Below, piece by piece: positions 13,168 to 19,491 of a DNA stretch of 64,000 bases. The notes under the pieces are model-generated. The model saw only the letters and a program-made list of their open reading frames with translations, did not search any database and was not told the DNA's origin. A program made the translations under genes and the position numbers. The stretch comes from Acidobacteriota bacterium (GTDB lineage: Bacteria; Acidobacteriota; Vicinamibacteria; Vicinamibacterales; UBA2999). The first letter of the stretch is position 1, and each line of letters begins with the position of its first letter. The stretch covers positions 1 to 64,000 of the forward strand of contig JAKFYH010000003.1 in NCBI GenBank assembly GCA_021730945.1. The letters run 5' to 3'.

Positions 13168-16100
13168 ATGCAGAAAATGATGATCACCGTTCCCACACTG
13201 AAACGCCGATCCGCGCGACTCGTATTCGCGACCACGATTGTGCTGGCGCTCGCCGCCGCGCACGTCGCGGCCCAGTACGGCTCGTTCAGCAGCGCCAATG
13301 AAGGCGCGGTGTACGGCGTTCGTCACGACCTGCCGCTGGGCCCCACCAGTGAAGCGGGCGGCGTGGCGTTGTTGAACGGCAAGCTGTATGCGGCCGATCG
13401 CGGGACCAACACGGTCCATGTGTTCGACGCCGCGACCGGCGCCCCGGTCGCCCTGCCTGGTCCGGATTGGGACGACTCGGCCATTCCCACCTCGCCGGTG
13501 CACCAGCTGAAGCCCAATGGCATCGCGGTCGCGACGGTGAATGTCGACGGCAACGACCAGGCGGCCCTGCTGGTGTCGGATACGCTCACCCATCGGGTGC
13601 TGGCGTTCGACGAACTGGGTACCTACCTGTTCACGATGCGGCTCGACCGGCCCGGCCAGAATGCCGCCGATGAGTACTATGCCGACCTCGAGGGTGCCAT
13701 TACCGGCCTGGCGATGGGCCCGAACGCCAAGTTCGTGTTCACGAGCGGCGCGACGCCGACGCTGGCACTGGTGGGCGGGTTTGCCGCCGGCTGGGTCAAC
13801 GAGTACGAGAGCGACGGCGCGTTCCTGGCCTACAAGGACCAGGTAACCATTGGCTACAACCCCACCGATTTCTGGTTCGAGCTGACTCCCGATGCCGCGC
13901 TCGATGGCACCGAGGGCGCCAACCTGCCGCCACCCAATCAGCTCCCGTTCGGTGTCGTGTTCGACGCTCTCGGCAACCTCTATACGATTGATACCAACAC
14001 CGAACGGCTGAACGTCTACAGCCCGTCGTTTGCGTTCCTGTTCGCATTCGGCACGCCGGTGTTTGATGGCACGCTGGCCGAATTCAACCAACCCTACGGC
14101 CTGGCATATTCGCCGGTCGACGGCGGCCGCATTTACGTCGGCGATTCCGAGAACCATCGCGTCGAGATCTACCGGCCCAACCTGGCTGGTGGCACGCTCG
14201 ACTACATCTCGTCGGTACTGGCATTTGGCGATGACTACCCGCGTTCGGTGGCGGTGGATACGGCGGCTGGCCGGCTGGCGGTCTCTGACCTCGGCGTTGG
14301 CCGGGTCTGGGTGCTTGAAACGCCAAATCTTGCCGCCTACAACGTCCGCGTGCTGACGGCGGCGGGCGCTCCCGCCGAGCAGATTTGCGCCGGTGCGCCG
14401 TACCAGGTCCGGTTCAGCCTGACGGTGCCTGCCGGCCGCGCTCCGGTCACCACGATCGTGCCGCAACTGTTTATCGATGACGTCCTGGAGTTGGGCGTGC
14501 CGGTGCCGAGCGGTGTTTACGCCGACCCGCTGAGCGCCGGGCAGGTGGCGACCTACACCTATTCGCTGGTGATGCCGCCGGTGGTTCCCTTCGGCGGCTA
14601 CGTCCTGAAGGTAGGCGCCACTTCATCCACCGCGAACGTCTTGTTCACGGAAGCCAACTTGAACGCGGTTAACTGCGTCGGCGCCCTGCCGACCATCACC
14701 GCCACTGAGAGTTTGCCAAGGCAGGTGTCAGGTTGGACGCCGGTGCCACCCGCGCAGACTTTCTCGGTAACACTGACGGCCAGCGACGTTGAAGGGGTCC
14801 AGGCGATCGAGTACGAGTTGATTGGCCAGAACGACCCCGGCACGACCATCCCGCTGGTTGACAATGACACTCCCGGCACCACGCAGGTGCTGACCGTGCC
14901 GCTGCCCGAGATGGGGCTGACCTCCATCCGCTTCCGTTCGCACGACACCGACAACCAGACCTCGGACTGGCAGCGCATCGACCTGCGGCTGATTCGGTTG
15001 ACCAACCGCCAGACCAATGAAAACACGGCCGTCACGACGATGGTCGGTTTGCCGGTTGGTGTCGGCTACACCTTCAGCGCGACCGGGTTGCCGCTTGGCC
15101 TGAACATTTCCGCCGCGACCGGCCAGATTTCTGGCGTGGTGTCGTTTAACGCCGCCGGCGTCAACAACCAGGTGTACCACGTGGTGTTGAGCGAGACGCT
15201 CGACGCCGTCACGACCTCGGTCGCATTCGACTGGACCATCATCAACGTCAATCGGCCGCCGGTGATCGATCAGCCGGTCGTTCCCTCGGCAGTGGAAGGC
15301 CAGCTGTTCACGCTGGACATCAATGGTAGTGATCCCGATGGCGACCCGTCGTTCTTCACGCTCAACGGCCGCAGCCTGACCCCCGGCCACGAGACCTGGA
15401 TCCTGCCCGAGTCGATTACGATCGACCCCGTGAGCGGCGTGATCAGCGGTATCTTCCCGCCTAACGCCGACCGCCAGTACGAGATGACGGTTGGGCTCGC
15501 TGAATGCAACGGCTTCCTGCCAGATCCGCCGTGCGGCGACGGCCCGCTGCCGGGCCAGCGCCTGGCCACGCTCTTGAACATCGTGGTGAGCGTCCTCGAC
15601 GTCAACCTGCCGCCCTCGATTGTCAATCCGGGCGATCGCCTCAACGCCGAGGGTGACTGGGTCAGCCTGCCGACCGCCGCCAGCGACCCTGACGGCGACA
15701 CCCTGACGTTTGCCGCCGACAGGCTGCCTAGTGGCCTGACCATCAACTCCGAGACCGGCCTGATCAGCGGCACGATTGCCTACAACGCCGCCGGCACGTA
15801 TGCCGTGACCATCGAGGTAGATGACGATCATGCGGACCCGGTGCCATTCCAGACATTCGAGTGGGTCGTGACCGACACCCCGCGGATCGCGGTGGCCGAC
15901 CAGACCGACCTGGAGGACACCTCGCCGGTCGTGCAACTGGATCTCGCGGCCCCGGTTGGCGCCCCGTTTGTGATCTCGATGTCGGGCCTGCCGGCCGGCT
16001 TCAGCGTCAGTCCGACCGGCGTCGTGACCGGCTATTTCGACTTCGACTCCGAACGGGTCTACCCGGTGACGGTGACGGTGACCGACGCTGACGGCTCGGA

Positions 16101-18774
16101 CACGGTCACCTTCAACTGGAACGTGCTGAACGTGAACCGTCCGCCGGTGCTCGTGGTCACCAACCTCGTCAATCTTGAGGGCGACGTGGTCGCACGGCAG
16201 ATTGAGGGCAGCGACCCGGACGGTGATCCCCTGACGTTCAGCATGAACGGCCTGCCCAATGGCTTTGTCATCGGCATCCAATCCGGCGTCATTACCGGAA
16301 CCTTCAGCTACACGAGCGCCGACACCTACTCGGTGAACGTCGGCCTGGTCGATGGTCAGGTTGGTGTGACCGAGAACTTCGACTGGCTCGTGACCGACGT
16401 GAACCGGTTGCCGATCGTGCTAGCGCTGCCTGATCGCACCAACGCCGAGGCCGACCCGGTTAGCTTCGGCGTCAGCGCGAGCGATCCGGATGGCAACACG
16501 CTGAGCTACAGTGCCCTCAACCTTCCGGACGGCGTCAGCATCAACCCGGCCACCGGCGCGATTTCCGGCACGTTGTCCTACAGTTCGGCCGGCACCCACC
16601 ACGTCCAGATCCGGGTGTTTGACGGGTTGGACACGACGATGGTGCCGTTCACCTGGACGGTCACCCCTGTCAACCGTCCGCCCACCGTGACGGCGCCTGA
16701 CCGCACCAACGCCGAGAACGACACGGTGACGTACTCGGTGACGGCCGCTGATCCGGACCTCGACACGCTGACCTTCAGCGCCACCGGCCTGCCGCCCGGC
16801 ATCACCATCAACACCGAGACCGGCGTCATGACCGGCACGCTCGGCTACTCGACTGCCGCCGGCAGCCCCTATTCCGTCGTGGTGACGGTCTCGGACGGTT
16901 CGTTGACCGCCGATGCTCCGTTCACGTGGACGGTGACCGACACCAATGCGCCGCCAGTGATTACCAACCCCGGCCCGCTGACCCACGCCGAGGGCGCCAC
17001 CATTTCGCTGGGCGTGTCCGCCAGCGACGAAGACGGCCAGTCGCTGAGCTTTAGCGCCACCAACCTGCCGCCGGGCCTGACCATGGCTTCGAACGGCCAG
17101 GTCACCGGTTTGCTCGGCTACGAAGCGGCCGGCTCCTATACGGTGATTGTCGCGGTCGATGACGGCGTGACATCGCGCACCATGACCTTCGTCTGGACGA
17201 TTACGCCGGTCAACCGTCCGCCGACGGTGTCGGCGCCCAATCGGTCCAACGCCGAGAACGACACCGTGTCGTACGCGGTCACCGGTTCGGATCCCGATGG
17301 TGACGTGCTGACCTACAGCGCCACCGGCCTGCCTCTCGGAATCTCCATTCACCCGAACACGGGCGTGATCAGCGGCTACCTCGGCTACACCACGGCCGGG
17401 ACCTATAACCCCGTCGTCACGGTGTCTGATGGGCCGCTGTCGGCCACCGCGCCCTTCGTCTGGGTCGTGACCAACACCAATCGTCCGCCGACGGCCGTGC
17501 CTGACTCGGCGACCGTGGTTCAGGGCCAGAGCACAACCATCAGCGTGCTGGCCAATGACATCGACCAGGACGGCGTTGCTTCGCTGTCGGTGGTGAGCGT
17601 CACGCAGCCGGCCAACGGCTCGGTCGTGATCAACGCCAACGGGACGGTGACCTACACCTCGAACAGCACCTACGTGGGCAGCGTGACGTTCTCGTACACC
17701 ATCACCGATGGTGCCGCGGCCTCAACCGCTACCGTCACGGTGAATGTCACGCCGAACAATCGCCCACCGGTTTGCTCGGCGGCCACCACCAACGCCGACA
17801 TGTGGCCGCCCAATCACCGCAAGGTCTATATCACCGTCACCGGGGTAACCGACCCTGACGGCGGCACGCCGACGATTCGCTTCACCTCAATCGTTCAGGA
17901 CGAGCCGACCGACTCGGTGGGCCAGGGCCACACCATGCAGGACGGCGGCATCGAGAACAACGGTGCGCTGGCCTGGGTGCGCGCGGAGCGCAGCGGCACC
18001 AAGAAGGTGCCCGGCGACGGCCGTGTCTACCTGATCGGCTTCACGGCGACTGACGCCGCGGGGGCCAGCTGCGAAGGCACCGTTCGAGTCGACGTGCCCC
18101 ACGACCAGCGCGGGACCCCGGCCGTACTCAGCCCCGGCCGCTGGAACTCGCTGACCGGCCAGCAGATTTCCGGTCCGGCGCCGGTGCCGGTCGCGGAGAA
18201 CGACAGCTTTGCCGCGGCCGCCGGGCGGCCCACCAGCCTCGCCGTGCTCAGCAATGACGAAGACAACGGCCAGGCCCTGACGATCTCGATTGTCAGCCAG
18301 CCGTCGAAGGGCAGTGTGACGGTGAACAGCAACGGCACCATCACCTACACGCCCCCGTCCAACAACTGGAGCGGGACGACCACCTTTGTCTACCGCATTC
18401 GCAATGCCGCGGGCGTCACCGACACCGCGGTCGTCACCTTGACGGTGTCGCGCGACAACGACGATGATGACGACGACAATTGCGGCGACTCGCGTCATGA
18501 TCACAAGCGCGACTCCGACAAGCGCGACAAGGACCACAAGAAGGGTGACCACGAGCGTTGCAGCCACGGAAAGTCGGACCGCGACAAGGGCAAGGACCGC
18601 GACAAGGACGACAAGGACAGGGACCGCGATGGCGACCACCGAGACGATGATCGCCACGACGATGATGACGATCGCGACTGCGGCGACTCGCGGCACGACC
18701 ACGATCGCGACTCCGATAACCGCGATCGCGATCACTATCGTGGTAACCACGACCGCTGCTACCATCGCCGCTGA
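13168..18774 (+). CDS. Giant secreted beta-propeller / Ig-repeat protein with charged Cys-His tail
   Basis: 1868 aa exported protein. Signal peptide at residues 1-36 (FATTIVLALAAAHVAAQ). Residues about 45-400 form an NHL-type beta-propeller (repeated GLAYSP...RIYVGDSENHRVEIYRP-like blades). Residues about 610-1435 hold nine or so He_PIG/cadherin-like modules of about 88 aa, each with a GLPxGxxINxxTGxxSG core and linked by NRPP or NAPP. Two 'Big_9' modules with VLANDxDxD and GTVTYTxxxxYxG motifs flank a domain starting CSAATTNADMWPPNHRK. Residues 1762-1868 are an Asp/Arg/His/Lys-rich tail with two copies of a CX25C module (Cys 1772/1798 and 1838/1864). No membrane anchor or sorting signal known to me. 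Likely a surface adhesin or matrix protein; its own promoter precedes it. Confidence 0.88.
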   Translation: MQKMMITVPTLKRRSARLVFATTIVLALAAAHVAAQYGSFSSANEGAVYGVRHDLPLGPTSEAGGVALLNGKLYAADRGTNTVHVFDAATGAPVALPGPDWDDSAIPTSPVHQLKPNGIAVATVNVDGNDQAALLVSDTLTHRVLAFDELGTYLFTMRLDRPGQNAADEYYADLEGAITGLAMGPNAKFVFTSGATPTLALVGGFAAGWVNEYESDGAFLAYKDQVTIGYNPTDFWFELTPDAALDGTEGANLPPPNQLPFGVVFDALGNLYTIDTNTERLNVYSPSFAFLFAFGTPVFDGTLAEFNQPYGLAYSPVDGGRIYVGDSENHRVEIYRPNLAGGTLDYISSVLAFGDDYPRSVAVDTAAGRLAVSDLGVGRVWVLETPNLAAYNVRVLTAAGAPAEQICAGAPYQVRFSLTVPAGRAPVTTIVPQLFIDDVLELGVPVPSGVYADPLSAGQVATYTYSLVMPPVVPFGGYVLKVGATSSTANVLFTEANLNAVNCVGALPTITATESLPRQVSGWTPVPPAQTFSVTLTASDVEGVQAIEYELIGQNDPGTTIPLVDNDTPGTTQVLTVPLPEMGLTSIRFRSHDTDNQTSDWQRIDLRLIRLTNRQTNENTAVTTMVGLPVGVGYTFSATGLPLGLNISAATGQISGVVSFNAAGVNNQVYHVVLSETLDAVTTSVAFDWTIINVNRPPVIDQPVVPSAVEGQLFTLDINGSDPDGDPSFFTLNGRSLTPGHETWILPESITIDPVSGVISGIFPPNADRQYEMTVGLAECNGFLPDPPCGDGPLPGQRLATLLNIVVSVLDVNLPPSIVNPGDRLNAEGDWVSLPTAASDPDGDTLTFAADRLPSGLTINSETGLISGTIAYNAAGTYAVTIEVDDDHADPVPFQTFEWVVTDTPRIAVADQTDLEDTSPVVQLDLAAPVGAPFVISMSGLPAGFSVSPTGVVTGYFDFDSERVYPVTVTVTDADGSDTVTFNWNVLNVNRPPVLVVTNLVNLEGDVVARQIEGSDPDGDPLTFSMNGLPNGFVIGIQSGVITGTFSYTSADTYSVNVGLVDGQVGVTENFDWLVTDVNRLPIVLALPDRTNAEADPVSFGVSASDPDGNTLSYSALNLPDGVSINPATGAISGTLSYSSAGTHHVQIRVFDGLDTTMVPFTWTVTPVNRPPTVTAPDRTNAENDTVTYSVTAADPDLDTLTFSATGLPPGITINTETGVMTGTLGYSTAAGSPYSVVVTVSDGSLTADAPFTWTVTDTNAPPVITNPGPLTHAEGATISLGVSASDEDGQSLSFSATNLPPGLTMASNGQVTGLLGYEAAGSYTVIVAVDDGVTSRTMTFVWTITPVNRPPTVSAPNRSNAENDTVSYAVTGSDPDGDVLTYSATGLPLGISIHPNTGVISGYLGYTTAGTYNPVVTVSDGPLSATAPFVWVVTNTNRPPTAVPDSATVVQGQSTTISVLANDIDQDGVASLSVVSVTQPANGSVVINANGTVTYTSNSTYVGSVTFSYTITDGAAASTATVTVNVTPNNRPPVCSAATTNADMWPPNHRKVYITVTGVTDPDGGTPTIRFTSIVQDEPTDSVGQGHTMQDGGIENNGALAWVRAERSGTKKVPGDGRVYLIGFTATDAAGASCEGTVRVDVPHDQRGTPAVLSPGRWNSLTGQQISGPAPVPVAENDSFAAAAGRPTSLAVLSNDEDNGQALTISIVSQPSKGSVTVNSNGTITYTPPSNNWSGTTTFVYRIRNAAGVTDTAVVTLTVSRDNDDDDDDNCGDSRHDHKRDSDKRDKDHKKGDHERCSHGKSDRDKGKDRDKDDKDRDRDGDHRDDDRHDDDDDRDCGDSRHDHDRDSDNRDRDHYRGNHDRCYHRR

Positions 18775-18807
18775 TTCCGTTGCCGGCGACGTGACGGCGC
18801 CAGCCTG

Positions 18808-19491
18808 ATGGCCGCCGTCACGCCGTCGTTTCTGCGCACTCCCAAGGCCGTCATTTTCGACATCGACGGCACCCTGGTCGACAACATGGCTCTCCACGCC
18901 GAAGCCTTCGCGCGCTTCGCCGAGCGCCACGGCCTGCCGCCGCTCACCGCAGCAGACCGCGCCCGTCTCGACGGCCGGCGCAACAGCGAGATCTTCCCCC
19001 TCTTGTTTAACCGTGAGGTGCCGCGCGACGAGTGGCAGGCGTACGAGGCCGAGAAGGAAGGTCTCTACCGCGAGCTGTCCCGGGGCCGGCTGGCGCCGCT
19101 GAACGGCTTGCGCCGCCTGATGGCGCGCCTGACAAGCGACGGAGTGCCGATGGCCCTGGCCACTTCCGCGCCCGAACCGAACGTCGCGCACACCTTGCAC
19201 GAGGTTGGCCTGACCGGCGTCTTTCCGATCATCGTCCGTGGCGACCAGGTGGGACGTGGCAAGCCCGCTCCAGACGTCTTCATCGAGGCCGGCCGGCAGT
19301 TGCAGATGGTGGCGGCAGACTGCCTGGTGTTTGAAGATGCGCCGATGGGCATCATCGCTGCCCAGGCCGCCGGGATGCCAGTGGTGGCGCTGACCACCAG
19401 TTTCTCGGTCGCACACTTCGCGGCGCTGCAGCCCCCGCCCAACGTGACTTGCGCCGACTTCGACGCCTTCCTCGAACTTCACTTCGCTTAG
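18808..19491 (+). CDS. HAD-superfamily phosphatase/phosphoglucomutase-like hydrolase
   Basis: 227 aa soluble HAD hydrolase of the beta-phosphoglucomutase subgroup. Motif I is FDIDGTLVDN (nucleophile first Asp), motif II is ALATSAP, motif III Lys is in GKPAPDVF and motif IV is VFEDAPMG. A helical cap lies between motifs I and II (residues about 25-95). Substrate would be a small phosphorylated metabolite such as a sugar phosphate; not assignable. Start ATG 33 bp after the giant gene's stop, with which it may be co-transcribed. Confidence 0.92.
   Translation: MAAVTPSFLRTPKAVIFDIDGTLVDNMALHAEAFARFAERHGLPPLTAADRARLDGRRNSEIFPLLFNREVPRDEWQAYEAEKEGLYRELSRGRLAPLNGLRRLMARLTSDGVPMALATSAPEPNVAHTLHEVGLTGVFPIIVRGDQVGRGKPAPDVFIEAGRQLQMVAADCLVFEDAPMGIIAAQAAGMPVVALTTSFSVAHFAALQPPPNVTCADFDAFLELHFA

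Follow-up and report, generated by a model that had tools for sequence, protein, structure and literature searches.

How giant Ig-repeat proteins are retained at the surface of poorly studied bacteria is the question raised by this locus, which encodes a protein ending in a Cys-, His- and Asp-rich tail that no catalogued sorting tail accounts for. The window, i.e. the whole 64,000-nucleotide stretch of Acidobacteriota DNA that was analysed, encodes a tail that is real and kept in a sister species, and that probably exemplifies a habit, so far undescribed, of a single bacterial group. A recurring Cys/His/Asp tail outside the family libraries is also a short peptide that can be synthesized, and it predicts a disulfide, metal binding and tail-dependent retention. 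The features of the protein and its downstream edge are as follows.

13168..18774, + strand, giant, putatively exported protein of 1868 aa with stop codon (open reading frame list; Pfam NHL, ten He_PIG and eight Big_9 matches)
13168..13272, + strand, signal-peptide-like N-terminus (MQKMM..KRRSARLVFATTIVLALAAAHVAA), read by eye from the sequence
14083..14172, + strand, best NHL repeat, aa 306-335 (Pfam PF01436, E 2.9e-15)
15610..17745, + strand, tandem He_PIG, Big_9 and cadherin-like Ig domains, of which aa 815-1526 are shown (Pfam)
17770..18126, + strand, WPPNH...PHDQ domain with two conserved Cys (1536, 1635), outside the Pfam, NCBIfam and PDB sequence families
18190..18450, + strand, last Big_9/CshA-type Ig domain, after which the tail begins (Pfam; the AlphaFold strands end here and the relative in G005 stops here)
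18808..19491, + strand, HAD hydrolase, downstream edge of the locus, outside the tail (Pfam; same order in G005 and G008)

These features support the identification of the protein as an exported Ig-repeat protein. Its repeats resemble those of the CshA-type and tandem-95 Ig-repeat adhesins, but the models of those adhesins do not include a Cys/His/Asp tail. Near the C-terminus the WPPNH-PHDQ domain (119 aa) is followed by one further Ig domain and then by the tail. The cysteines of the 1868-aa protein lie at 407, 503, 780, 789, 1536, 1635, 1772, 1798, 1838 and 1864. The gene is flanked by carboxyltransferase and HAD hydrolase genes, an order kept in the congeners G005 and G008; neighbours at the window locus are a carboxylase, HAD, TamB and Omp85, and a Pfam scan of the neighbours there returned no metal genes. 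The tail itself is made up as follows.

18451..18771, + strand, polyampholyte tail, aa 1762-1868 (charged-residue fraction 0.67, net charge per residue -0.12, pLDDT about 40)
18458..18566, + strand, upstream copy of a 109-nt DNA duplication
18481..18567, + strand, module A, CX25C plus CSH, aa 1772-1800 (Cys positions and module comparison)
18568..18678, + strand, degenerate K/D/R/H spacer between modules A and B, with a D-run ahead of module B
18656..18764, + strand, downstream copy of the 109-nt duplication, 75% identity
18679..18771, + strand, module B, CX25C plus CYHRR, aa 1838-1868, the copy closer to the single module of G008 (70% identity)

The last 104 residues consist of D40 R19 H12 K10 G7 S6 C4 N3 Y2 E1, with D, R, H and K making up 78%, which agrees with the original prediction that the final 105 or so residues are nearly all D, R, H, K, S and G. 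The two CX25C pairs that it had named (Cys1772-Cys1798 and Cys1838-Cys1864) are spaced exactly so in the 1868-aa frame, and the stretch between the modules, which it had called degenerate, is K/D/R-rich as described, being KD-rich with short internal repeats. Module A (CGDSRHDHKRDSDKRDKDHKKGDHERCSH) and module B (CGDSRHDHDRDSDNRDRDHYRGNHDRCYH) agree at 21 of 31 positions and have in common the words CGDSRHDH, RDSD and a terminal RC-x-H, again as had been claimed.

Modules A and B are a true duplication. The best 31-residue self-match within the tail has 23 identities, a value that none of 20,000 composition shuffles equalled (at most 19). At the DNA level the tail holds a 109-nt direct repeat, 75% identical at a spacing of 198 bp, and the extent of this repeat indicates that part of the acidic run before each Cys was copied along. 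The copies differ at 7, 3 and 15 sites in codon positions 1, 2 and 3, respectively, with an NG86 dN/dS of about 0.2.

The syntenic protein of G008 (1551 aa) has the same architecture (NHL, He_PIG, Big_9, WPPNH, Ig) and ends in one intact CX25C module, CGDRGHDHGRDNDGRDRDHRRGNHTRCRHH, in the same frame and with the stop at the same place. The dN/dS between module B and this module is 0.38; between the window and G008 the WPPNH domain is 71% identical (dN/dS 0.28) and the last Ig domain 60% identical (dN/dS 0.62). Judged from these ratios, which are rough at 30 codons, the constraint on the tail module appears to be about that of the WPPNH domain and above that of the adjoining Ig domain, and it does not look like drift. 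The original prediction had held that a tail limited to one genome, with frameshifts in its relatives, would mark drift in a low-complexity repeat; instead, the congener's one copy is intact and keeps the frame. The G005 protein at the same place (1620 aa) gives no NHL or He_PIG matches and has no tail, its last Ig domain forming the C-terminus; downstream of its gene, no tail remnant was found in any forward frame across 130 codons. Since the tail is missing from this syntenic relative, it is optional. In G003, G004 and G006 there is no giant gene in the stretch after the carboxyltransferase. The relatives have even Cys counts (10, 8 and 6), most of these residues occupying paired positions that correspond between the proteins, and two or four come from the tail; even counts together with export would favour disulfide loops.

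The exact module is very narrow and was found in two species only. A search of the kind proposed with the original prediction, here with a profile of three modules (A, B and that of G008), gave no further convincing match across 162 genomes of the order, where the weak matches looked like unrelated charged frames and were rejected. The pattern CG[DN]..HDH.RD, a strict motif that may conceal diverged modules, matched 34 stretches in about 85,000 species genomes, of which only the one in the G008 protein (L118) proved to be a genuine tail. That stretch belongs to the public contig JAIEMQ010000073.1, which is titled as a cyanobacterial MAG; the matching genome groups in the genus of the window, and the title is possibly a mislabel. 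Two other patterns were discarded: C....HDH.R gave chance matches across the family except in the window, G008 and G012, and a polar-run pattern (24 VRN codons) picked up stretches that encode different residues in another frame, in numbers similar to those of the control. Within the genome that the window belongs to, searches turned up the module in no other protein.

The tail is predicted to be an intrinsically disordered, strongly polyampholytic C-terminal extension. Its charged fraction exceeds the criterion of 0.35 for a strong polyampholyte, and the charges are well mixed (kappa about 0.10). In the AlphaFold model the final strand ends at the tail start and the tail has no secondary structure, which, coming from a three-row alignment, is weak evidence of disorder. 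The claim that no known secretion or sorting tail matches was confirmed: the 108-aa tail has no NCBIfam match at E<=1, the PEP-CTERM, MYXO-CTERM and GlyGly-CTERM models included, and no matching Pfam model. These tails and the Por-secretion tail are likewise C-terminal extensions on large surface proteins, but they have a motif plus a hydrophobic helix, or a folded domain, and the window tail has neither. A, V, L, I, F, M and W are all missing from its last 104 residues, which leaves no hydrophobic anchor or helix. RTX or type I secretion features were not seen either, as the tail has no GG pair and the N-terminus reads as a Sec signal. PDB sequence searches (top match E 0.18) and plasmid sequence searches gave nothing useful, and we found no literature on Cys/His/Asp tails of this kind. 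An optional tail without a matching sorting model is unlikely to be an export signal that the protein must have.

Two sharper by-products of the analysis are the WPPNH-PHDQ domain and a 15-aa repeat, neither of which has a match in Pfam, NCBIfam or PDB sequences. The WPPNH-PHDQ domain spans about 112 aa; across ten sequences 24 columns show no variation, the WPPNH and QDEP words are invariant, two Cys are conserved and the end is of the VPHDQ type. It is widespread at the C-termini of large proteins across the phylum and was detected in 46 of 396 sampled genomes at E<=1e-20. Most WPPNH proteins stop within about 30 residues of the domain and have no tail. Among the 39 distinct ones with a readable end, the last 40 residues are at least 50% D/E/R/K/H in three (window, G008 and G012); this content is 38-45% in G092, G058 and G079, and charged tails occur also in G025 and G113. 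Tails of similar composition follow WPPNH or terminal Big_9 domains in G012, G079, G092, G113 and G114. Among the samples, tails with Cys plus D/H/R were confined to the order of the window, with short Gly-rich ends at most elsewhere in the phylum. Cys/His/Asp tails of similar composition recur on other C-terminal Ig/WPPNH and Ig-like/NHL proteins of the class, which the original prediction had not noticed; this class-wide habit, like the module, its duplication, the intact relative and the purifying pattern, is apparent from sequence comparison. In G050 and G024 (L220, L294) Cys-bracketed D/R/S/H/K-rich segments also lie between two cadherin-like domains.

A scan of 193 class genomes for GHxxGDxCxH exposed the tandem repeat of 15 aa, GHxxGDxCDHDRxxN. 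In G114 (L213, G114:C14) a Big_9 domain is followed by about 17 units that carry Cys, and two units stand at the very protein end in G050 (L220, G050:C125) and in G012 (L229/L291, G012:C4), where the sequences are near-identical across two genera; further units occur in G079 and G113 (L228, G113:C279). The AlphaFold model of the G114 repeat tail, made from a single sequence, has a mean pLDDT of 38.5 and is uninformative. Like the window tail, which directly follows a Big_9 domain in a large Ig-like protein, the repeat tails of all five genomes stand after terminal Big_9/WPPNH domains in Ig-like giants, and they have the same Cys/His/Asp/Lys-Arg composition and, tentatively, the HxxG[DN]x(1,3)CxH knuckle in common with it. 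In contrast to the CX25C pairs of the window, they are built of CX14C units, with one Cys per unit and less Arg. The kinship of the two forms is not significant by profile, since 704 of 5000 shuffled tails reach the score of the window tail. The knuckle is present in modules A and B and in G008, and in about 0.4-0.8% of shuffles, with the gap widened post hoc and the three copies counting as one event. In a BLAST comparison of the window protein with a G079 protein from another family of the same taxonomic order, the alignment starts at WPPNH, crosses Big_9 and continues into the tail, matching up the two Cys; the G079 protein comprises a signal peptide, NHL, HYR, WPPNH, Big_9 and a tail. A common origin of the window tail and the 15-aa repeats is likely but unproved, the evidence being suggestive only. 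In G133 a 114-aa His/Asp/Cys-rich ORF (L223, 1402-1746, - strand) that belongs to no Pfam or NCBIfam family adjoins a CDF zinc-efflux gene. It resembles the window tail in its two HxxGDxCx(1,2)H knuckles and its His/Asp richness, but it is a small separate protein with no Ig domains and almost no Arg or Lys, and the likeness is by motif only.

We tentatively propose, as the leading reading but at somewhat less than an even chance, that the tail is a sticky end, disordered and probably closed by disulfides, that binds divalent metal. It would have arisen when one ancestral H/D/R module bracketed by Cys was duplicated at the C-terminus of an NHL/Ig-repeat protein destined for export. Once in the oxidising envelope, either Cys pair would most likely shut a 27-residue loop, holding several His and many Asp and terminating in the HxxG[DN]x3CxH knuckle. 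The loops may bind divalent cations, with Zn-type soft sites at Cys/His and Ca/Mg at Asp, and perhaps also charged polymers, so that the tail would act as a cation-dependent sticky end holding the long Ig stalk in surface polysaccharide or matrix. Disulfides, metal binding and tethering, all of them raised in the original prediction, are plausible; for metal binding the plausibility comes by analogy from the knuckle in the ORF beside the zinc-efflux gene. It is distinctly unlikely, as a wider claim, that a class of Cys/His/Asp knuckle tails, with CX25C modules and 15-aa repeats as its two forms, terminates giant Ig-like surface proteins in this class of bacteria and shifts them, depending on metal and redox conditions, from a free to a matrix-bound or cross-linked state and back.

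The same residues could serve a different end. A metal store or sensor, in which reduced Cys and His hold Zn, Cu or Ni without a disulfide for surface metal buffering or scavenging, would suit the Cys/His/Asp content and the knuckle common to the His-rich ORF beside the CDF gene, but we judge it rather unlikely, as export takes the tail to an oxidising site, the Cys are paired in relatives and the scanned window neighbours include no metal genes. That the tail has no specific function and is a passive, slippage-expanded, charged solubilising end is also unlikely, if deserving serious thought: the KD-rich spacer with its internal repeats, the tailless G005 relative and the tails of other species, which cannot be aligned with that of the window, all fit such filler, whereas the preserved module with its third-position bias between copies, the exact Cys spacing and RCxH end maintained between species, and a constraint near that of a folded domain do not.

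A novel C-terminal signal for sorting or secretion, with export or anchoring machinery dedicated to it, would explain why the module is strictly C-terminal in the window and G008 and why giant proteins elsewhere bear similar C-terminal tails. We consider it quite improbable, since there is no hydrophobic segment or NCBIfam sorting model, most WPPNH proteins and the G005 relative manage without a tail, similar segments also lie inside proteins between Ig domains, and no second module-bearing protein was found in the own genome. Least credible of all is an artefact, whether the frame was misread, the assembly collapsed or a GC-rich repeat left a frame open by chance. Another open frame (18464-18808) does overlap the tail, and its end coincides with the HAD start codon, but the A/B substitutions fall at third positions of the 1868-aa frame, the alternative frames are less conserved and one has stops, and the copy in the separate G008 assembly, with the same frame and stop, refutes the artefact. 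The codon-position pattern and dN/dS indicate that the 1868-aa frame is coding and that the overlapping one is incidental, and the latter was ruled out as the real frame.

Beyond the tail, about 9 kb of genes lie between the giant gene and the HAD gene in G005 and G008 (L143, L144), read by eye as a glycosyltransferase, an epimerase, a DegT-type aminotransferase and an amidinotransferase. A tie between the tail and this glycan-type cluster was considered and dropped, because G005 has the cluster without the tail and the window has the tail without the cluster, its HAD gene starting 33 bp after the giant gene.
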